Below are positions 24,630 through 36,838 of a stretch of 36,838 bases of DNA, one piece after another. The notes under the pieces are model-generated. The model had not been told where the DNA came from, did no database searches, and was given only the letters and a program-made list of their open reading frames with translations. A program made the translations under genes and the position numbers. Source of the stretch: Phycisphaerae bacterium (GTDB lineage Bacteria; Planctomycetota; Phycisphaerae; Sedimentisphaerales; Anaerobacaceae); assembly GCA_029858035.1 (NCBI GenBank), contig JAOUFU010000003.1:1-36838 (forward strand), written 5' to 3'. Each line of letters opens with the position of its first letter. The stretch's first letter is position 1.

Positions 24630-25586
24630 ATGATGAACAATAGGAAATCGGTATCCAGACGTTATTTTATGAAACAATCTTTGGTTGGGGCCGCTCTGTT
24701 GGCTTCTGCGTCAGCGAGTGAATTACCGGCTGCGCAAAAAAAAGATCCCTTGTTGCGATTGGGAGGCCCCACTTTCGAAAAATATGACAATCCTGATTCA
24801 TGGGTCCAGGCGATGAAAAAGCTCGGCTACAGGGCGGCCTATTGCCCGGTAGGCGCCGATGCAACCGATGATGTCGTCAGCGCCTATGCCGCCGCAGCCA
24901 AAAAGGCCGACATAATTATCGCCGAAGTGGGTGCGTGGAGCAATCCGATCAGTCCCGATGAAAAAACGCGCCGTGAGGCGCTGGCGAAATGCCGCAGTCA
25001 GCTCGCCTTGGCCGACAGGATTGGAGCAAACTGCTGCGTCAACATCAGCGGCTCACGCAGTGAGCGCTGGGACGGCCCTTCATCCGGCAACTTCACCGAA
25101 GAAACATTTGATATGATTGTTGAAACAACGCGTGGTATTATTGACGATGTCAAACCGACCCGGACATATTTCACGTTGGAAACCATGCCGTGGGCGTATC
25201 CGGACTCCCCTGATTCGTACCTGCGCTTATTTAAGGCCATTGACCGCAAGCGATTTGCCGTACATCTGGATCCGGTCAATCTGGTTTGCAGTCCTCAGCG
25301 ATACTTTGGAAACGGTAAGCTTATCCGCGAATGCTTTAGAAAACTCGGCCTCTATATCAAAAGCTGCCACGCCAAGGATATTCTTTTGCAGAAAAAACTT
25401 ACCACTCATCTCGACGAGATTCGTCCGGGCTTGGGTGGTCTGGATTATGCCGCGTTTTTGAAGGAATTGAGCAAAATACCGGACACCCCTCTCATGCTGG
25501 AGCACCTGCCTAATGCAAACGAATACGAATTGGCGGCTGAGCATATTCGCGGCGTTGCGAAAAACATAGGATTGTCTTTCGGGTAA
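24630..25586 (+). CDS. Sugar phosphate isomerase/epimerase (xylose isomerase-like TIM barrel), Tat-type leader
   Basis: SVSRRYFMKQSLVGAALLASASASE leader; TYFTLETMPWAYPDSPDSYLRLFKAIDRKRFAVHLDPVNLV...CFRKLGLYIKSCHAKDILL. Confidence 0.85.
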   Translation: MMNNRKSVSRRYFMKQSLVGAALLASASASELPAAQKKDPLLRLGGPTFEKYDNPDSWVQAMKKLGYRAAYCPVGADATDDVVSAYAAAAKKADIIIAEVGAWSNPISPDEKTRREALAKCRSQLALADRIGANCCVNISGSRSERWDGPSSGNFTEETFDMIVETTRGIIDDVKPTRTYFTLETMPWAYPDSPDSYLRLFKAIDRKRFAVHLDPVNLVCSPQRYFGNGKLIRECFRKLGLYIKSCHAKDILLQKKLTTHLDEIRPGLGGLDYAAFLKELSKIPDTPLMLEHLPNANEYELAAEHIRGVAKNIGLSFG

Positions 25587-25675
25587 GAAAGATTCTGTTT
25601 ATAAGCAAAAGTAAAAGTGATCCAAAGGGATCAGTAACTAAAAACGTTAACGACGCTTTTTCAGGAGACAGGTAA

Positions 25676-26458
25676 ATGAAGTACACAGGTAAAATCACGA
25701 TTCATATAGTAATATTGGCAGCCTTTTTACTGGTAGCGGCGGGATTTCTTTGCTCGTGCTGCGAATGCGGCCGGCCGGCCAAAGACCTCAGCAAGCCGGG
25801 CGAGAACCTGAAGGTGCTGGTGGTTACGGGCGGGCACGCGTTCGAACATGAGCCTTTCTTTACACTGTTCGAGGGCTATGATGATATCGAGTATGTCGAG
25901 GCCCAGCTCAAAGACGACAGCGAGATTTTCGAGGACATTAGCGGCTGGGATTACGATGTTATCGTGTTTTTCAATATGACACAGAATATATCGACGAAAA
26001 GGCAGGAAAATTTCAAAAAGCTCGTAAAGGACGGTGTCGGCGTCGTGGCCCTTCACCACTGCATGGGCTCCTTCCAGGAGTGGCCCGAATATATCAAAAT
26101 CATCGGCGGCAGGTACAATTTGAAGGAATCCGAGCAGGGTGGTGTCAAAAACGAGGCGAGCACATATAGAGAAGGTGCGGACTTTACTGTTCACATTGAT
26201 GATTCCAAGCATCCGATTACGCGGGGACTGGCGGACTTCCAAGTACACGACGAGACATATAAAAAATGCAGCTTCGAGAAAGATAATCACCTGCTTATGA
26301 CAACTAACCATCCCGATAGCGATAGAGAGCTTGGCTGGGTCAGGAGCTACGGCAGGGGAAAGGTTTGTTTCATAATGACCGGCCACGGCCCCAGCGTCTA
26401 CGCAAATCCAACCTACCGCCAGCTTGTCGCACGCGCCATCCGATGGTCCGCGAACTGA
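25676..26458 (+). CDS. ThuA-like domain protein, lipoprotein/secreted
   Basis: LKVLVVTGGHAFEHEPFFTLFEGYDDIEYVEAQL...DYDVIVFFNMTQNIS...VGVVALHHCMGSFQEWPEYIKIIGGRY; C-terminal GRGKVCFIMTGHGPSVYANPTYRQLVARAIRWSA. Confidence 0.87.
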   Translation: MKYTGKITIHIVILAAFLLVAAGFLCSCCECGRPAKDLSKPGENLKVLVVTGGHAFEHEPFFTLFEGYDDIEYVEAQLKDDSEIFEDISGWDYDVIVFFNMTQNISTKRQENFKKLVKDGVGVVALHHCMGSFQEWPEYIKIIGGRYNLKESEQGGVKNEASTYREGADFTVHIDDSKHPITRGLADFQVHDETYKKCSFEKDNHLLMTTNHPDSDRELGWVRSYGRGKVCFIMTGHGPSVYANPTYRQLVARAIRWSAN

Positions 26459-27246: not shown

Positions 27247-27319
27247 AAGTGCGGTTTTTGGGCTAAAGAATGAGGGTGTTAAAAAAATATTTTATTTTTT
27301 TATTTTTTACTTGCAATCT

Positions 27320-27344
27320 CTACAATTGTAGTGTAGTCTCTACA
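27320..27344. promoter_or_regulatory. Candidate BlaI-type operator(s)
   Basis: Perfect 12-bp palindrome CTACAATTGTAG (27320-27331) followed by TGTAG-TCT-CTACA (27332-27344), just upstream of the BlaI-family gene. BlaI/MecI operators are TACA/TGTA dyads. Confidence 0.6.
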
Positions 27345-27370: not shown

Positions 27371-27772
27371 ATGGCAAAAAGAAATCCCGAACTGACCGAA
27401 GCCGAATGGGCAATTATCCAGGCCGTCTGGGACAATGAGCCGTGCGCGGCCCCGATGGTTCAGGAAGAGCTCCAGGCCCGAAAGGACTGGCACTACAGCA
27501 CCGTCAAGACCCTGATGGACCGGATGGTCACAAAAGGGCTGCTGACCACGGAAAGATTCCGCAATCTCATTCTGTACCGCTCGGCAATCACAAGGGTCCA
27601 GGCGCAAAAGGGCGAAATCATGCGCGCGGTAAAAAGGGCGTTCGATGGGGCCCTTACGCCGATGATGCAGTTTATGCTGGATGAGCATAAACTGTCGCAG
27701 AAGCAGCTGGCTGAACTGGAGTCGCTAATAAAGAAGAAACGCAAAAAGGGTACTGCTCGCAAAAAAAGATAA
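27371..27772 (+). CDS. BlaI/MecI/CopY family transcriptional repressor
   Basis: LTEAEWAIIQAVWDNEPCAAPMVQEELQARKDWHYSTVKTLMDRMVTKGLLTTERFRNLILYRSAI: winged-helix BlaI signature. Confidence 0.92.
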   Translation: MAKRNPELTEAEWAIIQAVWDNEPCAAPMVQEELQARKDWHYSTVKTLMDRMVTKGLLTTERFRNLILYRSAITRVQAQKGEIMRAVKRAFDGALTPMMQFMLDEHKLSQKQLAELESLIKKKRKKGTARKKR

Positions 27773-27826
27773 TTTTTCCTGAAACTAAAATTCCATAAGT
27801 GCGTCTTAATAAGCGGAGGACGTATT

Positions 27827-30800
27827 ATGAATACAATAGTAGAATATATAAATTCGGCAGGATTTTCGTTTATTGAATTCGCCGTACCGATGCTCGTGCA
27901 GTCCGGCATACTGATTGTAATTTTACTGCTGGCCGATCTGCTGCTGCGAAAAAAGGTCAAGGCGGTGTTTCGGTACTGGATATGGATGCTTGTACTTGTG
28001 AAACTGGTTTTGCCTACCTCGCTTTCGTCGCCTTTGAGCCTGGGGTATTTGTTTGGCGAAAAGCTGACATATCAAGACCTGGCTGAAACGACCTCAGCGC
28101 TGGAACTCGCCGAGCCCGCCCCGGCGGAAAACTTGCCCGGCATCAATCCACTCTATATACAGCCGAATCCGTACGTGCCACCGAAAGTGCCGGTGGCATC
28201 GGTTGTCGAGCCGGAGATAGCAGAGCCGGTCAGCCCGCCGGCGGAACCGGTGACGCCTCTGGCCTGGCAGGGGGTTGTGTTTCTTGTTTGGCTTGCTGTT
28301 GTGATAACAATGGGATTATTGTTGTTGCAGCGGGCGCTCTTTGTCCGCGGCCTCGTCGCACAGGCTAAAAAAGCGAGCCGTTTGATGAATGATGAGCTTG
28401 CGTATTGCTGCGCAACTATGAGGATAAAATACAGGGTTGGCTTAAAGGTTTCGCCAAACGCAACGACGCCGTCGGTGTGTGGATTAATCAGGCCGGTGAT
28501 TCTGGTGCCGTGGAACCTGGCATCAACGTTGGGCGCTTCTCGTCTGCGGACGGTTTTAATGCACGAGCTTGCCCATATCAAGCGTGCCGATTTGTGGGTG
28601 AATCTTGCCCAGACCGCTTTGCAGATTATCTATTTCTATAATCCGCTTTTGTGGCTTGCCAATTGCGTGATTCGAAGGATTCGGGAGCAGGCTGTCGATG
28701 AGGCCGTGCTTGTGGCGATGGGTGAGGGGGCTCAGCAATACCCGCAGACGCTTGTGGACGTGGCGAAGATGGCTTTTAAGCGGCCGGCCTTGAGTCTGCG
28801 GCTTATAGGTGTTGTGGAATCCGAAAGTGCGCTGGCCGGGCGAATCAAACATATCCTTGGCCGCCCGATTCCGAAAACCGCAAAACTTGGTATTGTGGGA
28901 GTGCTTGCCGTCGTAATTGCAGGCGCCATCCTGCTGCCGATGGCAAGGGCTAAGAACGAAGGCGGATTCTCCGACAAAGATTTACTCATAAAGTTCGCCG
29001 AAATCCCGGAAGGATCGGCTAAAAAAGTTTCTGTTGATGATACAACAATATGGTCTAAAAGTTACGAGGTGGAATTTGCACCAGGGCAAGATTTGCTCGT
29101 GGTCGTCGAAATGTATCAGGCGGGACAACCAATGCGGATCCCGGGGCGGTGTATTTTTGAAGGTTCCCAAAAGCCGGAAAAATTCACCATAACGTTTGAT
29201 AGAGCTTATCAGGACGCTGCAAAAAGGTCTGTCACTCATAACATACAATTTAAACTCGGTGATCAGGTATTTAAGATTCCGGTACATACACCTCGATATT
29301 TAAGCACACAATGGTGGGATTGGTATCGAGGTGAAGGTTTGCGGAAGCCCGAAATGCGGTATACAAAAACGAGGTACGCCGGGATTGAAACCCTTTTTTA
29401 CTATGGCGCCGCAAATTTATCAAGGGAATCTGAATACAAGGCGAAATTCTGGATTCCCGGCCGTGATGTTACGCCGGTAATGAACCAATATGGTATCGCG
29501 CTGAAAATGATACCTCTTGGCAGTTTAAAATACTTATATGTGGAACCTATAGGCGGCTATCAGGGTTTGGACGGCAAGATTATTTCAAGGAGTTTGACAC
29601 TCGAAAGAGCTGACCTGATAGCCGACGAATACAAACAAATGATAATTGACAGTGTTGAGAAGCAATGGACGGCTGAAAAGCAGACTGAGCCGGAAGTGAG
29701 TGTGGGGGACGCTTCTTTGGACCATTTTGTCGGCAGGTACGCTCTGGCCGGACATCCCGATACGGCTGTCTTTGAGATTAAAAAGGAGGGCGATGTTTTT
29801 ATCTTTAGCGGCCTTGACGTCCCGAAATTTGAGATGGACATTTTCTTAAGGGGCCTTGAAGGCCGTAGGTTCGAGATGGAAAAGGGAAGGGACAACTTGA
29901 AATTTGGCGACAATCCACGTGAGCGGTACCGTGTGAGATACAACGCCGCCGAAGATCGTTACATTCTGGATAGTCTTGGCATGAGGGGAGAGGTGCAGGA
30001 TTCCATGATTTCCCCGCTCACCGACCTGGTCAAGATTTCCGCGGAGAAACCGGATGGTACATTTGCTGCGACCTTACCTAACGGGGTAACGGTTGAGCTG
30101 ATGGGCGTTTGTGAGCTTCCAAGCGAGGGTAAACAGTGGTGGGCTGCTGATGGGAGTTTGCTTGAGGACATCTTCTGGGAAGGGAGTACTGCCAACAGAG
30201 AATCTTCAGTAGACGCCCGCCAGGTCGTGTTTCGTATCCGCAGTGATGAGAGCGACCCTGCCCTGGCCCCGACAATAAGCTTCCAGCCCAAACGCCGCCT
30301 GCAGCCTCCCGGATCATGGTCAGGAGCTTTTTTTGTGAAAAAGGACAACCAGACACTGGAGGAGTTTCGCGGCTGTTCATTCTCGCTGCATGATGATCAT
30401 CCAACAATTGATATTTCCGCCGATATCGGATACGGCCCGTGGAAAAGACAGGCTACAAAAAGAACAAACTCGTATGGAAATATAGTGTCCACTTTTACAG
30501 GCATTGGAACACTGATTCTGAATGACCCCACGGAAAAAAATGGCAAAACAACCATTTCGGCAACCTTGTTGAGTCGAGTCAAGGCATGGCGGTTTGTTGC
30601 GGTGGACAAGCAAGGCAATATTCACAACAGCGGGTCGGCGTCTTCAATCGGCTTGGACGAGGATACAGAAAACAAAACCCCCGAACACCAGATCTGTACA
30701 GGAAAATTTGCACTGCCGCTGAGTCAAATCGACAAATTTCAGTTCCAAACCAGACAGGTTGAAACGATCACCTTCAAAAACGTTTCTCTCGAGCCGAATT

Positions 30801-33800
30801 TCAAAACCGATGTGCAGGTTGAGAGTGATACAACAGAGGCAGTGCCTGTTTTGGTGGAGGCGATTGAAACTGCAAGAGCAGGAATTTCTTTGCCTATTAG
30901 AACAGTATTCTCCGGTAAAACCGATAAGGGAGGTTCTTTTGAATGGGAAACTTCTATTGACCCGAGAGTTCGTTTTCGCCATGGCTGGTACACGGTTGAG
31001 GACGGCGCGGTTAGAGAGCATGTTGGTGGCGGCAGTCAAATTCCTGAAGAAAGCAAGCTAAATCTTAAGCTGGATGTTGAAGTAAAAGATAATATGCTTA
31101 ATCTTAAAGTACAGCGCGTACATGATTCAGCGGACGGCAGCCGTACAGAGGCGGTGGCCGGTAAAACAGCAGTACCGGCCGGAGCTCATCTCAAACATGT
31201 CAGCACAGTTGATTCTGCCGTTCTTACGAATAAGCACCTAAATCTTTGGCAGGGAGACTTTATAAGTGACGGCAAAGTAGTGAAGTCTGTAATTTACGCT
31301 GCATATCTTACTACTCCGGATGACCAGGAGACCGGATTCAAGCCTCCGGAATTACAAAAAGGCGAAATTGTAACAACAAAGGTTGGGCCCGATACGTGGC
31401 CTGGGATTGAAAGCAGCGTATCGCCAAAGCTGGTGATATTACTCGATGCGATTAACAGTTGTGCTGCCGAAACAGATTTAAACATAGATTCAATCTCCAT
31501 TACAGACAGGAACATTAGCATAAAAGGAGATGCTTCAAGCAGGGCAAATTCGCGAAAATTCCTGGATGCAGTAAAAGATAATGGACTAAAAGTTTCATCT
31601 GTGCGTCTTAATGCAGCGGGTAGTCGCGATAAATTTATTATAATTGTTGAACCGAAGAAAGACTGGCAGCAGTGGTTCCAGCAGCGTAAGACCGATGTTC
31701 AGCTTGGCCTTGAAGAGACCATATCACCAAAACTGGTGATGTTGCTCGCAGCGATTAAAAGCGTTGCCGCCGAGGCAGAGTTGAACATTGATTCAATCTC
31801 CATTAAGGATAACAAAATTGAAATAAAGGGAGATACCGCCGGCAGGACAAATACGCTGAAATTCTTGGATGCAGTCAAAGACAATGGACTGGAGGTTTTA
31901 CGACTAAGTGACATTGCAAGGGACAATCGCAATAAATTCAGTTTGGTTGTTGAGCCGAAGAAAGACTGGCGGCAATGGTGGCAGCAGCACAAAACCGATA
32001 TAGAGGCTGATTTTCAGGGTGGCTGGGGTGAAGCGGTTGATGGGATAATCTGTGCGGTAAAGCCAGTTAAAGAAAGTTTTTTTGCAGGTGAGATTTTTGA
32101 ATTTGATATTACCTACAAAAACGTTTCAGACCACCCCATAACAGTTTGTAAATACCCTGATTATTTTTATGTCTGGACACGTCTGGAAATTTTAGCGTCC
32201 AAAGGAAACACAATCTTGAGCGGAAGGCATGCAAACGGAATTTATCTTTCGCTCAAAGCTTCTGACTTTGCAACCCTTCAGCCGGGGCAGACGGCTTCTG
32301 TACGACAGAAAATCGAAGGTTACAAACTTGACCTTCTGGGCTTGCCGATACCCGGTAAATATGCGGCAAAGGTATCGATCAATGAGATAAATAGAATGCA
32401 TGAGCATATCCCCAAATTTGACGAATTTTGCAGAAAAAATAACATCAAACCATGGACAGGCAGTATTAAAAGTGGCCCAGCAGCATTTATGGTCATACCA
32501 ATGCCGGAAATTCAATGGGGCGAGGAGGCTGAAGGGCTCCATGTAGGAACTGGGGAGCCAGAAGTGAAAGATGGGTCTATTAAAGTACCGGCATTTTTAA
32601 GTAATAAGCGGTCGGATGATAAAAAATATTTCGATGGTGCCGATTATCAAATTATATTAAATAACAAGTTGTATCTTAGTTATCAATGGCCTGCATTGAA
32701 CAGTAGACAAGTGACAGTTTACCCTGAGCAAGTGCGAGGTCCTTTTTGGATAGATTTGAGTGATTATGTAAATGAATCCGATCGTGACCAATCTTATCAA
32801 GCGGATCGACCTTTGAAACAATTGCCGAAAGGTAAGTATAATCTCCGAGTAATTTATGTAGGTAGAAACGGGAAACCTCGAATTTCTTCACCGGAAATAA
32901 ACGTTACAATACCAGATGATTCAAGTTGGGGCGAGGCGGTTGAGGGTGTGCAGGTTCGCTTGCGGCCGGTGAAAGATACGTGGGAGGCAGAGGAAAAACC
33001 CGTATTCAAAGCCGATATTCGCAACCGCGGTGGGCTTGAGTTGTCTGTCTCTACTGCCGATGAGAAATGTCAACTGGAGGTTGATGGACTGTGGTACGGT
33101 TGGTCCGGCCCATGGGGTATACCAAACATTGAGAGGTCGTTACTTGGGCCAGGTAGTCAAATCAACGACATCAGTATTTCTTTGGCTAAGAAATGGGTAG
33201 GCCCAAGAAAGGCGCTTACTCTTACTGCCGGCATGCATACTGTGCGCGTTGCCTTCATCTTACAACGCCCTGAGCGGAAAAACCAGGATCTTGTACGTGC
33301 GATAAGCAATCCGATTGAGATTAAAATCCTGCCGGCGAAAACCGATGTGGTGGTTGAGGGTGATGTAAAAGTAAAAAAGGAAGGTTTGGTTTGGGGTAAA
33401 CAGGTTAATGGTCTGCGGGCGGCGCTGGAGTTTGTACCGGAGAAGGAAGCTTATTCAATTGGTGAACAGATAGGCGTTCGTTTACATGTACATAATACAA
33501 CCGGCAAACCGATACAGTTTATCAGTGAGACCTGGCGTCAGGACGACAGGGCAACCGTAGAGGACGAGGAAGGCAACCTGCAACCAGTGGGCCACACCTG
33601 GTATTCCGGCAGGCCTCGTGTTGAGCGTTACTACTTGAAGCCTGGTGAGCAGGTCGTACTGGAAAGCTCGGCCTTCGGCCTCGCGGCCGATTATAAGCAG
33701 GCTGAAAGCCTCGGCCATCCTGTTGGCTGTAAGCTCGTCTGTAAGCAGGGCATCTATTCTGTTAGTTTTTCAGTGAGGCTCCCAGGTATACGGTCTTCGT

Positions 33801-36800
33801 CTCTTCCACCGCAGGAGGACGACTGGGAGGGAGTGCTGCAGACCGAAAAGCACAGGTTGGTCGTCACCGCTGCTTCCAGGCCGGACCAGATGAGCGCTGT
33901 GCCGGTTGGGAATGAACAGTCTGTAGTTGGAGAATGGGAGGATGTTGGCAATCCTATACCGGCTGATTTCAACGATACTATCGCATTAACAGAACAAATA
34001 AAATTGGGCTCAATAGGACGGGATGTAGAAGGAAAATCATTCATTACATTTGTTTGGGACAAGGAAAAAGATAGGAACCGTCAATATCGATTTGTACTTA
34101 TCAATAAAAACGACGCTATTCTTGAGCCTGACAGCCACCTGGTTTTGGACGAGAACGGAAGACTGGAGGAAAAATTTACCTTCGATGAAACGTATGTCCC
34201 TTGGCGATTAAAGGAATTTAAGTTTCAAAGCAGACCCTTACCTCTTGCAGGGCCTCAGAGTATTTCATCGCAATTGCAAAAGGATACTTCCACAGCTTTT
34301 GAAGGTAAAACAATTTCGCCGTCCGAGCTGGCTCCGCCCGGCCGGTATGCGATAGAGCTTGACGGCGTCGATGACTATCTGTTCGTACCTGACAGCCCCA
34401 CTTTGCGGTTAGAGCCGCCTTTTACCGTTGAGATGTGGATAAAGCCAAAGCTTCCTGAGCAGAAGCCTGATCGCTTACAGCAATGGGGCGTGATTGCCCA
34501 GGGCGGCTATATTGGCACTGGTAGAGTAAAGCCGAGAGGTTTCGGGATAGAACTTATACGCTTTGAAAAGGAGCCGGCAAAGTTTAACATTAGTTACAGT
34601 GAAGCGAATGACAGAGGTATAAACGGATCAGAATACGGCCGCTATAGTTTTGATGAGTGGATACATATTTCTCACGTTTTTGAAGGCGGAAATTACAAGC
34701 CCGGTCCCGGCCATCCTCTGGTAGTCGGCAAATTTCTGATTCCCGTACCAGAGCCGTTCATGGGCCAAATAGGAGAGGTTCGCATCTGGAATACTGCTCG
34801 AACGCGCGAAGAAATCCGCCGGTACAAAGATGTCGCTCTTACGGGAAAGGAACCCGGCCTGGCTGCATGCTGGACCTTCGAACAGGCCGAAGGCCAGTTC
34901 GCATACGACATTAGTGGTAATAATAATCACGGCCGTCTGGGCAAGGTCATAGAGGCCGATGATGCCGACCCCAAATGGGTCGACCTCGAGGCGGCCGCGC
35001 ATCAGCCCGGCCGGATAGCTGATGTGTCGGTTGTAGGTGAAGGAACTGAGGCTGTCTCAGGAGAAAGCCAGGTTAAGCCGGCGGCCAATGAGGAGGGTCC
35101 GAGAATTACATTTGAAAACCTGGTTTGTGATTTAGGCCGGATTGCTTCGGGGACTAAACATGTTTGTGAGTTCAAATATACAAACACTGGAAACGAAGTT
35201 TTGAAAATTACGAGAGTCGGTGCTGCTTGTGCCTGCACGGTACCGCAAAAGACAAGGGAGTGTGCACCCGGCGAGAGCGGGACGTTGAAAGTAACATATC
35301 AATCAGGTACAAATGCAGGGAAGGTTAAGAAATATGTATATGTACACAGCAATGATAAGGTGAATCCAAGGGTTAAGCTGACTATAAAGGCTGAGATTGT
35401 AATTAAAGTTGCCCATGAGCCGAAGAGATTAAACCTTGTGCTTGATAAGGAAAATGCAGGCTGTCCCGCCATTACGCTTACCAGTCTTGACGATCAGCCA
35501 TTTTCCATTACGGGCTTTAAATCGACCGGTGATTCACTAACGGCTGATTTTGACTCTTCGCTGAAAAGGACGAGCTTTGTTATCCGGCCGATGGTCGATA
35601 TGGAAAAACTTCGAAAAGGTATGAGGGGCCAGATCAATATCAACCTTACTCATCCGGATTGCAAAAAGCTCATGATTGTCTTTGAAACACTACCGGAGTT
35701 TAAAACCGACCCGCGGGTAATCTACGTCCGTGAAGCTGAACCACAAAAGCCGGTAACGAGGAGAGTCCGGATACTCAGCAACTATAATGAGGATTTTGAG
35801 ATTGAATCGACATCGTCGAGGAACGGCACTATAAAAGTTTTGGCTCAGGAGAAGGTTCGCGACGGTTATCAGTTCGAGCTTCGAATAACACCGCCGGAAC
35901 AGGAGTCCAAAAGAAGGGTCTTCACGGATGTGTTTACCGTGATGCTAAAAGGCGCCCAACAACTTCAAATTACCTGTTACGGAATCTATGCAAAGAAACC
36001 GGCAGAAACAACAGAAAAATCAACTTCCAAAACCAACATGCAGACCGAAGTTGAGCAAAGCAGCTCTGAGTCCGGAGGCGATGGGATTGTTGTCGTTAGC
36101 AAGGGTAAGAGCACGATGTACAGCTCGATTAAAGAGGCGGTTGACGCTGCGCCCGCCGGTTCGGTTATACGCGTCGATGCTGGTGTTTACGGGGAAAGGC
36201 CGGAGTTAGAAGTTGAGCAAAGCATTGAAGCTTCCGAGGCCACAAACGCCGCGTTGACTGTGCCGGAGGCGGCCAAAACACGGGGAGGAATTTCGGGTGT
36301 TGTAGTCAGTTCTGTTACGGGTGAGCCGATTGCCGGGGCCTATGTGGGCGTGGGTGACTTCGGCGATTCCGGCGGCTCGAACTATTCAAGACACCGCTCG
36401 GAGGGCTTTCACGACAAGACCAAAACGGACGAAAAAGGCCGGTTCGAGCTTAATGGATTGGTCTTTATAGATAAACACCGTGATCTCGAATATCATCCAC
36501 TTGTTGTAACCCATCCGGATTTTGTCCGTCACGATGAAAAAATCAAACTGCTAAGCGGTGAGCCTGCACCTGATGTCAAGGTTAGTTTAAGACCAGCGGC
36601 AAAAATAGGTGTCACAATTGTGGATGCCGAGGGTAATCCTCTCGAAGGACAATGGTTGCTGCGTCTGGAAGCTTTGGATGGACGCCGTTTCATCCCACCG
36701 GGCAGCGACCCGCACCTGTCCTCTTTCGCCTCAAACGTCTGGGCCCACTGGCCCGACATGCGAGCCAATTTGGGCGTCTCAAGTGGATTTACATTTACCG

Positions 36801-36838
36801 AACTGGATTCCGGCCGGTATTCAATCGAAGCTATAAGG
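27827..36838 (+). CDS. Giant BlaR1-like M56 metalloprotease receptor with large multidomain extension (open at window end, at least 3004 codons)
   Basis: ATG 27827 with GGAGGA upstream. N-terminal M56/BlaR1 region with TM helices and zinc motif MHELAHIKRADLWVNL, REQAVDEAVL. The same frame (start positions = 2 mod 3) was confirmed by hand at about 28559, 28952, 29261, 29999, 30959, 32009, 32999, 33962, 34982 and 35981. Absent from the ORF track, presumably because no stop occurs before the window end. Confidence 0.82.
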   Translation, partial: MNTIVEYINSAGFSFIEFAVPMLVQSGILIVILLLADLLLRKKVKAVFRYWIWMLVLVKLVLPTSLSSPLSLGYLFGEKLTYQDLAETTSALELAEPAPAENLPGINPLYIQPNPYVPPKVPVASVVEPEIAEPVSPPAEPVTPLAWQGVVFLVWLAVVITMGLLLLQRALFVRGLVAQAKKASRLMNDELAYCCATMRIKYRVGLKVSPNATTPSVCGLIRPVILVPWNLASTLGASRLRTVLMHELAHIKRADLWVNLAQTALQIIYFYNPLLWLANCVIRRIREQAVDEAVLVAMGEGAQQYPQTLVDVAKMAFKRPALSLRLIGVVESESALAGRIKHILGRPIPKTAKLGIVGVLAVVIAGAILLPMARAKNEGGFSDKDLLIKFAEIPEGSAKKVSVDDTTIWSKSYEVEFAPGQDLLVVVEMYQAGQPMRIPGRCIFEGSQKPEKFTITFDRAYQDAAKRSVTHNIQFKLGDQVFKIPVHTPRYLSTQWWDWYRGEGLRKPEMRYTKTRYAGIETLFYYGAANLSRESEYKAKFWIPGRDVTPVMNQYGIALKMIPLGSLKYLYVEPIGGYQGLDGKIISRSLTLERADLIADEYKQMIIDSVEKQWTAEKQTEPEVSVGDASLDHFVGRYALAGHPDTAVFEIKKEGDVFIFSGLDVPKFEMDIFLRGLEGRRFEMEKGRDNLKFGDNPRERYRVRYNAAEDRYILDSLGMRGEVQDSMISPLTDLVKISAEKPDGTFAATLPNGVTVELMGVCELPSEGKQWWAADGSLLEDIFWEGSTANRESSVDARQVVFRIRSDESDPALAPTISFQPKRRLQPPGSWSGAFFVKKDNQTLEEFRGCSFSLHDDHPTIDISADIGYGPWKRQATKRTNSYGNIVSTFTGIGTLILNDPTEKNGKTTISATLLSRVKAWRFVAVDKQGNIHNSGSASSIGLDEDTENKTPEHQICTGKFALPLSQIDKFQFQTRQVETITFKNVSLEPNFKTDVQVESDTTEAVPVLVEAIETARAGISLPIRTVFSGKTDKGGSFEWETSIDPRVRFRHGWYTVEDGAVREHVGGGSQIPEESKLNLKLDVEVKDNMLNLKVQRVHDSADGSRTEAVAGKTAVPAGAHLKHVSTVDSAVLTNKHLNLWQGDFISDGKVVKSVIYAAYLTTPDDQETGFKPPELQKGEIVTTKVGPDTWPGIESSVSPKLVILLDAINSCAAETDLNIDSISITDRNISIKGDASSRANSRKFLDAVKDNGLKVSSVRLNAAGSRDKFIIIVEPKKDWQQWFQQRKTDVQLGLEETISPKLVMLLAAIKSVAAEAELNIDSISIKDNKIEIKGDTAGRTNTLKFLDAVKDNGLEVLRLSDIARDNRNKFSLVVEPKKDWRQWWQQHKTDIEADFQGGWGEAVDGIICAVKPVKESFFAGEIFEFDITYKNVSDHPITVCKYPDYFYVWTRLEILASKGNTILSGRHANGIYLSLKASDFATLQPGQTASVRQKIEGYKLDLLGLPIPGKYAAKVSINEINRMHEHIPKFDEFCRKNNIKPWTGSIKSGPAAFMVIPMPEIQWGEEAEGLHVGTGEPEVKDGSIKVPAFLSNKRSDDKKYFDGADYQIILNNKLYLSYQWPALNSRQVTVYPEQVRGPFWIDLSDYVNESDRDQSYQADRPLKQLPKGKYNLRVIYVGRNGKPRISSPEINVTIPDDSSWGEAVEGVQVRLRPVKDTWEAEEKPVFKADIRNRGGLELSVSTADEKCQLEVDGLWYGWSGPWGIPNIERSLLGPGSQINDISISLAKKWVGPRKALTLTAGMHTVRVAFILQRPERKNQDLVRAISNPIEIKILPAKTDVVVEGDVKVKKEGLVWGKQVNGLRAALEFVPEKEAYSIGEQIGVRLHVHNTTGKPIQFISETWRQDDRATVEDEEGNLQPVGHTWYSGRPRVERYYLKPGEQVVLESSAFGLAADYKQAESLGHPVGCKLVCKQGIYSVSFSVRLPGIRSSSLPPQEDDWEGVLQTEKHRLVVTAASRPDQMSAVPVGNEQSVVGEWEDVGNPIPADFNDTIALTEQIKLGSIGRDVEGKSFITFVWDKEKDRNRQYRFVLINKNDAILEPDSHLVLDENGRLEEKFTFDETYVPWRLKEFKFQSRPLPLAGPQSISSQLQKDTSTAFEGKTISPSELAPPGRYAIELDGVDDYLFVPDSPTLRLEPPFTVEMWIKPKLPEQKPDRLQQWGVIAQGGYIGTGRVKPRGFGIELIRFEKEPAKFNISYSEANDRGINGSEYGRYSFDEWIHISHVFEGGNYKPGPGHPLVVGKFLIPVPEPFMGQIGEVRIWNTARTREEIRRYKDVALTGKEPGLAACWTFEQAEGQFAYDISGNNNHGRLGKVIEADDADPKWVDLEAAAHQPGRIADVSVVGEGTEAVSGESQVKPAANEEGPRITFENLVCDLGRIASGTKHVCEFKYTNTGNEVLKITRVGAACACTVPQKTRECAPGESGTLKVTYQSGTNAGKVKKYVYVHSNDKVNPRVKLTIKAEIVIKVAHEPKRLNLVLDKENAGCPAITLTSLDDQPFSITGFKSTGDSLTADFDSSLKRTSFVIRPMVDMEKLRKGMRGQININLTHPDCKKLMIVFETLPEFKTDPRVIYVREAEPQKPVTRRVRILSNYNEDFEIESTSSRNGTIKVLAQEKVRDGYQFELRITPPEQESKRRVFTDVFTVMLKGAQQLQITCYGIYAKKPAETTEKSTSKTNMQTEVEQSSSESGGDGIVVVSKGKSTMYSSIKEAVDAAPAGSVIRVDAGVYGERPELEVEQSIEASEATNAALTVPEAAKTRGGISGVVVSSVTGEPIAGAYVGVGDFGDSGGSNYSRHRSEGFHDKTKTDEKGRFELNGLVFIDKHRDLEYHPLVVTHPDFVRHDEKIKLLSGEPAPDVKVSLRPAAKIGVTIVDAEGNPLEGQWLLRLEALDGRRFIPPGSDPHLSSFASNVWAHWPDMRANLGVSSGFTFTELDSGRYSIEAIR
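31403..31999 (+). repeat. Two tandem ~99-aa PilN-like repeats within the giant receptor
   Basis: SPKLVILLDAINSCAAETDLNIDSISITDRNISIKGDASSRANSRKFLDAVKDNGLKV...VEPKKDWQQWFQQRKTD versus SPKLVMLLAAIKSVAAEAELNIDSISIKDNKIEIKGDTAGRTNTLKFLDAVKDNGLEV...VEPKKDWRQWWQQHKTD. Confidence 0.85.

Follow-up and report, generated by a model that had tools for sequence, protein, structure and literature searches.

Switches of the BlaR1 type are mainly known for sensing antibiotics through a single small domain, and the extracytoplasmic sensor of BlaR1/MecR1 comprises about 250 amino acid residues. In the window (the whole stretch of DNA that was analysed, 36,838 nt), an intact BlaI-M56 gene pair spans positions 27371-36838, and its M56 member is an open reading frame (27827..36838, + strand) of 3004 codons that contained no stop codon on translation and was still open at its 3' end. 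Is this frame one genuine gene, what does its long C-terminal part consist of, and how could such a part be built?

The window is the entire contig C461 of genome G000, which is divided into 732 contigs; thus, the cut 3' end of the M56 gene is the contig end. A giant frame of this kind would be overlooked if an ORF track omits frames running off a contig end. The frame starting at 27827 had the highest codon-usage score of all forward frames in each 300-bp segment, and the other two forward frames contained 2-15 stops per segment. In related genomes, the same locus was recognised by its neighbours: an adjacent blaI plus a ThuA-like gene on the upstream side, a purC-like gene on the downstream side, or both. 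The complete M56 genes at this locus contained 4347 (G002), 4128 (G003), 1992 (G004), 1762 (G038), and 1347 (G026) codons. As these genes are complete and end in stop codons, the frame in the window is real and not a merger of genes; merged genes or a frameshift were ruled out by the codon-usage scores together with these relatives. The giant BlaR1-like frame of at least 3004 codons, proposed in the first-pass annotation, therefore stands. A protein search of 100 related genomes found M56 frames of up to 4353 codons from stop to stop, and in a phylum sample of 119 genomes, those outside the window had at most 1761 codons among the matches listed. On present sampling, giant M56 size is a feature of the order.

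The gene pair is organised as follows.

27317..27335, no strand: BlaI-type operator TCTCTACAATTGTAGTGTA with a TACA-NN-TGTA core, from 10 aligned upstream regions
27371..27772, + strand: BlaI/MecI-family repressor, 133 aa (Pfam Penicillinase_R, PF03965, E 4.4e-28)
27827..28954, + strand: M56/BlaR1 protease core, aa 1-376 (Pfam M56, PF05569, aa 21-343, E 8e-43)
28955..36838, + strand: extracytoplasmic array of cassettes, aa 377-3004, truncated at the contig end; helix-free beyond aa 372

The M56/BlaR1 N-terminus thus adjoins a BlaI gene, as annotated at first. The core carries the HEXXH motif as HELAH (aa 246-250, 28562-28576), and hydropathy indicated four transmembrane-like helices (aa 22-40, 44-70, 149-167, and 354-372) and no further hydrophobic helix from aa 372 to aa 3004. 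Cryo-EM chains of BlaR1 (8exp/8exs) were the sole PDB match (aa 149-313, E 1.3e-6), with none by sequence for the remaining 2604 aa. According to the hydropathy and the 8exp alignment, the protease is placed before the last of the four helices, as the BlaR1 layout requires. Compared with its orthologues, the core has a dN/dS of 0.12-0.24. No transpeptidase (penicillin-binding) domain was detected in a Pfam scan of the frame and its pieces, the frame being cut by the contig end, and the NCBIfam model blaR1_generic scored 112 bits vs its cut-off of 400. The earlier proposal of a BlaI/M56 switch in which a giant extracytoplasmic array replaces the penicillin-binding sensor is supported by the four helices, the HELAH motif, the match to BlaR1 only, and the lack of a detected transpeptidase.

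The palindrome core TACA-NN-TGTA, which we take to be of the BlaI/MecI operator type, was invariant upstream of blaI in all 10 orthologous regions, and matches to the operator pattern with 0-1 mismatch were found at blaI in G002, G003, G004, and G026 as well as in the window. Judged from the sequence, the protease fold with its catalytic motif, the four-helix layout, the BlaI neighbour, and the conserved operator are well established. A BlaI regulon could not be derived from the operator pattern: five relatives gave 23-59 matches per genome, and the 20 contexts read were mostly a dispersed intergenic repeat. This repeat (L182-L201; in G002, G003, G004, and G000) reads FMQNKPNFRKSQMNVS in frame, opens with the palindrome TCTCTACANNTGTAGAG, which is near-identical to the blaI operator, and is present tens of times in the genomes of some relatives. 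Upstream of blaI, at 24630-26458 of the window, lie xylose-isomerase-like TIM barrel and ThuA-like genes; a similar ThuA-like ORF of 258-260 aa recurs upstream of blaI in several relatives.

Beyond the core, the protein is a mosaic of modules often joined by an in-frame 22-bp DNA element, AAANCCGATGTGCAGGTTGAGG, which is read as K-x-D-V-Q-V-E. The following modules and junctions were located in the window.

30053..30802, + strand: recurrent all-beta module beginning ATLPNGVTVEL, aa 743-992 (profile and model)
30803..30824, + strand: junction element 1, AAAACCGATGTGCAGGTTGAGA (KTDVQVES), 20/21 consensus bases
31409..31687, + strand: first of two tandem PilN-like modules, about 93 aa (Pfam PilN E 0.0024, below cut-off)
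31688..31709, + strand: degenerate junction element 2 (KTDVQLGL), 15/21
31709..31990, + strand: second copy of the tandem module (sequence)
31991..32012, + strand: degenerate junction element 3 (KTDIEADF), followed by WGEAVDG
32885..33337, + strand: WGEAVEG Ig-like module, aa 1687-1837 (homology and model)
33338..33359, + strand: junction element 4, AAAACCGATGTGGTGGTTGAGG (KTDVVVEG), 19/21
34280..35014, + strand: LamG-like (concanavalin fold) module, about aa 2152-2396 (PF13385, 28.6 bits)
35015..35036, + strand: tentative degenerate element (IADVSVVG), 15/21, at the LamG/DUF1573 boundary
35066..36013, + strand: DUF1573 module, aa 2414-2729 (Pfam DUF1573 at aa 2427-2524, E 7.5e-22)
36029..36049, + strand: degenerate junction KTNMQTE, aligned with KTDVQVE at aa 4068 of the G003 protein
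36290..36463, + strand: carboxypeptidase-regulatory-like module (PF13620, below cut-off)

The window gene thus has two good junction copies (30803 and 33338) and two to four degenerate ones; the IADVSVVG site may be due to chance, codon shuffles giving 0.29 such sites on average. Some of the modules have recognisable domains, several of them at or below the respective cut-offs. Among the domains named by the first-pass annotation, DUF1573 was recovered clearly. The LamG jelly roll passed its cut-off, but barely (28.6 vs 27.6 bits); the carboxypeptidase-regulatory-like module is visible, but CarboxypepD_reg fell below its cut-off (22.2 vs 32.3); and the PilN-like repeats exist as a tandem pair, whose likeness to PilN is below cut-off. 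What had been read as WG repeats is instead the Ig-like module beginning WGEAVEG, the model of which (pLDDT 82) resembles CARDB and BsuPI-like folds.

The modules of the window array are common to other M56 genes, where they stand in different orders and positions. The profile of the ATLPNGV module matched 53 of the 89 family genomes, mostly within long open frames; its model is all-beta (pLDDT 74) and had no confident PDB match in fold. The WGEAVEG module shares 62.7% identity with one in a G001 gene (L116), the LamG-like module 35-42% with modules of the G034 and G041 giants, and aa 2762-3003 of the window protein 66% with aa 3719-3956 of the G002 protein. Two stand-alone genes of the same genome (L128) are 60-62% identical to the DUF1573 module, which corresponds to the mature part of their family and ends no more than a few residues from the natural C-terminus. 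The giant receptor has captured its DUF1573 module from this stand-alone family. The stand-alone proteins (about 370-400 aa) are encoded in tandem at L128:5197-7430 (G000:C441) beside a CXXCH-containing ORF, and relatives of the pair occur across nearly the whole order.

Comparison with the same-genus orthologues showed 75-85% identity in the core (aa 1-376), and beyond aa 380 only scattered modules in common, at differing positions. Among the orthologues, G003 carries AhpC/TSA-redoxin and carboxypeptidase-regulatory domains, G002 has a SecD P1 head together with HEAT repeats, and G038 has a secretin domain. A second, distantly related type of M56 paralogue (MSIVEFLSQPLWQRLGLTLVHFLWQG; L109, L112, L116, and L118) bears the same element, and there are cassettes common to both types. 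Giant M56 genes that are free of the element also exist in the family (G034, G041, G027, and G021); thus, the junction element is one route to giant size and is not needed for it. The element-free receptors at L056, L057, L058, and L060 are 2900-3600 aa long, and a blind search found no recurrent 15-mers at the module borders of the element-free giants.

We next consider whether the junction is a feature of the DNA or of the protein. In 23 sites from M56 genes picked by protein homology and not by DNA (one unrelated DIQV site was omitted), the codons were nearly fixed: GAT for D in 23/23, GTG for V in 22/23, CAG for Q in 23/23, and GTT for V in 19/23, with background frequencies of 0.56, 0.28, 0.61, and 0.29, respectively. 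Between genera, the synonymous difference was 11% in the element codons vs 54% in the left flanks and 51% in the right flanks. We collected 62 sites, of which about five lay antisense or in another reading frame and were taken as chance; the remaining sites, about 57, link 30 unrelated left flanks with 41 unrelated right flanks. Conservation is confined to AAANCCGATGTGCAGGTTGAGG, with almost no information left a few bases to either side. The 62-site set was filtered at 12 or more of 15 matching bases, and the sets used for codons, 15-mers, and synonymous difference were unfiltered. A blind 15-mer search for recurrence in unrelated contexts returned only this element, plus runs of N, and nothing in the codon-shuffled control.

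These data bear on the explanation that KTDVQVE is merely a linker peptide favoured in the protein, its similarity in DNA being a by-product. The constant reading frame and the position between modules would suit a linker, but the synonymous sites of the element are conserved far beyond the flanks of the same genes, which rejects a pure protein linker, and homology breakpoints pile up on the element; we regard this explanation as very improbable.

The 17-bp core with one mismatch or fewer gave about 70 matches in 199 genomes vs 1 for the reversed control. Within the family, the in-frame matches were almost all inside M56 genes or pieces thereof, and most matches in other planctomycete orders were in the wrong frame or lay on the reverse strand. 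Matches in Rhodobacteraceae and other non-planctomycetes were taken as chance (about four exact ones are expected, more in GC-rich genomes); only planctomycete matches were traced to M56 genes. An element-like copy, KTDVPVEGE, lies outside M56 genes in a 342-aa open frame of the window's genome (L074, G000:C694:733).

In 31 element-bearing frames, 360 of the 1754 homology ends lay within 12 aa of an element, compared with 68 +/- 21 expected and 136 in the highest of 500 shuffles. As the test counts HSPs, which are non-independent, these values are a strong description and not an exact probability, and about 80% of the breakpoints were away from any element. In the alignments, homology at cassette ends stops inside the element. 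Homology between G002 and G003 resumes on the 3' side at the terminal element, 27 bases upstream of where the stop codon ends; in this pair, the array is thus enclosed by two fixed anchors, with the M56 core on one side and the terminal element on the other.

Discrete boundaries, conservation at the synonymous level, breakpoints within the element, and its near confinement to M56 genes would also be expected if a dedicated site-specific recombinase acted on the element, as on integron attC or shufflon sfx sites, with the M56 genes as its cassette platform. However, a dyad-symmetric recombinase site was not supported: no dyad is conserved in the element, and pairing would be limited to NCC...GGTN, whose N varies freely. 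Moreover, all true copies run in gene orientation, so inverted repeats of the shufflon kind are absent. A dedicated recombinase is possible, though we are inclined to doubt it.

Exchange between genomes is recorded in the modules themselves. Two M56 genes whose core proteins have just 29% identity share a cassette of about 850 aa that is 90.7% identical in DNA, and here too the homology ends inside the element. The dS values of core and module were 1.66 and 0.147 (G002-G016), 0.97 and 0.22 (G002-G038), and 0.65 and 0.23 (G002-G003). Since module dS between genera (0.147 and 0.22) is far below core dS (1.66 and 0.97), the modules moved after the lineages split; as judged from these values, horizontal transfer between genera is well demonstrated. 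Module dN/dS was mostly 0.11-0.5, with 0.66 in one short pair of only 106 codons. These values are similar to those of the cores (0.12-0.28), and thus the modules are maintained by purifying selection.

The same values speak to the suggestion that the C-terminal part is a neutral accretion of fused genes and no sensor, only the protease core being at work. The captured secretin and SecD head in relatives, which have no obvious sensing role, and the varying lengths of the same-locus proteins (1347 to 4347 aa) agree with accretion. Against it stand the dN/dS of the modules in their fused context and the intact frames of more than 4000 codons in separate genomes, and we consider it unlikely.

An assembly artefact, in which a short repeat joined different genes or organisms, is scarcely credible. 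A 22-bp repeat can mislead assemblers, the window is one of 732 contigs, and the element-bearing genes come from multi-contig draft assemblies. However, separately deposited assemblies share cassettes at 83-94% and not 100% identity, the joins are all in frame, the G002 and G003 genes have both ends in the same syntenic flanks, and a 2155-aa frame with the ATLPNGV module is present in a single-contig genome.

We therefore favour, as probable, a BlaR1-type receptor with an exchangeable array of cassettes as its sensor, in which recombination takes place at the 22-bp junction. The element, the clustering of breakpoints, the horizontal transfer, and the purifying selection on modules were directly observed in the comparisons; that recombination acts at the element itself is what we infer from them, and sensing by the array and cleavage of BlaI are suggested by analogy with BlaR1. 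In the proposed mechanism, the M56 membrane protease would face the cytoplasm beside its target repressor BlaI, and the long extracytoplasmic region would be the sensor. Ligand binding or damage at the array would trigger the protease, BlaI would be inactivated, and blaI-M56, possibly with other genes, would be derepressed. The array is a mosaic in which at least some modules come from free-standing proteins. Because the element is fixed in phase, the DNA between two copies can be swapped with the frame intact. Related species exchange cassettes horizontally between their M56 receptor genes, and would thereby keep the engine and gain new sensors. The simplest route would be RecA-type homologous recombination over an identical stretch of about 22 bp; under homologous recombination, the element would stay identical because drifted copies stop recombining. 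It is no more than a reasonable guess, from the captured envelope and secretion domains, that the array senses the state of the envelope; the polymer or envelope-stress sensor of the first-pass annotation is likewise tentative, as the sequence itself points to no ligand.

The likeness to BlaR1/MecR1 with BlaI/MecI includes the M56 core with HEXXH, the four helices, the adjacent BlaI, the TACA-TGTA operator, and a C-terminal extracytoplasmic part. Unlike these receptors, that of the window shows no penicillin-binding sensor, its modules are exchanged, and the extracytoplasmic part exceeds 2600 aa (about 3970 aa in G002). Integron cassettes likewise move horizontally as modules with a short conserved DNA element at their borders; the M56 cassettes, in contrast, are fused in one frame of one gene, and the profile of the element, with no conserved dyad, contains no palindromic attC with a conserved core. 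In shufflons (R64 pilV, hsdS), which diversify surface or DNA-recognition proteins, short repeats at module borders also vary the C-terminus, whereas the M56 repeats are direct and not inverted, form long tandem arrays, and serve exchange between genomes and not inversion within one. Polymorphic toxins/Rhs and mosaic surface proteins similarly combine a conserved N-terminal engine with variable C-terminal modules gained by recombination; the M56 protein differs from the toxins in being a receptor, with many modules per gene and one short DNA junction at many borders. In the titles and abstracts of the open-access subset of the literature, very long frames are already known in planctomycetes, none of the papers listed announced an M56 receptor or a cassette junction, and we found no prior description of a cassette-array M56 receptor.

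The exchange of the array as cassettes at a conserved DNA element is the larger finding, and it was absent from the first-pass annotation. The same BlaR1 engine here carries parts of thousands of residues, with modules exchanged between genera. The phase-fixed junction is a concrete route to new bacterial receptors by plugging in folded domains, and it is a natural example of in-frame domain exchange that may be reusable in protein engineering. The element, the breakpoints, and dS offer a measurable handle on the origin of giant planctomycete proteins. More speculatively, and with rather low probability, there may be a dedicated receptor-diversification system, in which specific machinery loads, swaps, and passes sensor cassettes at the 22-bp element into BlaI-linked M56 receptors. 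If so, the lineage would share a common pool of sensors or decoys, and some of the cassettes would derive from the cell's own envelope and secretion proteins.
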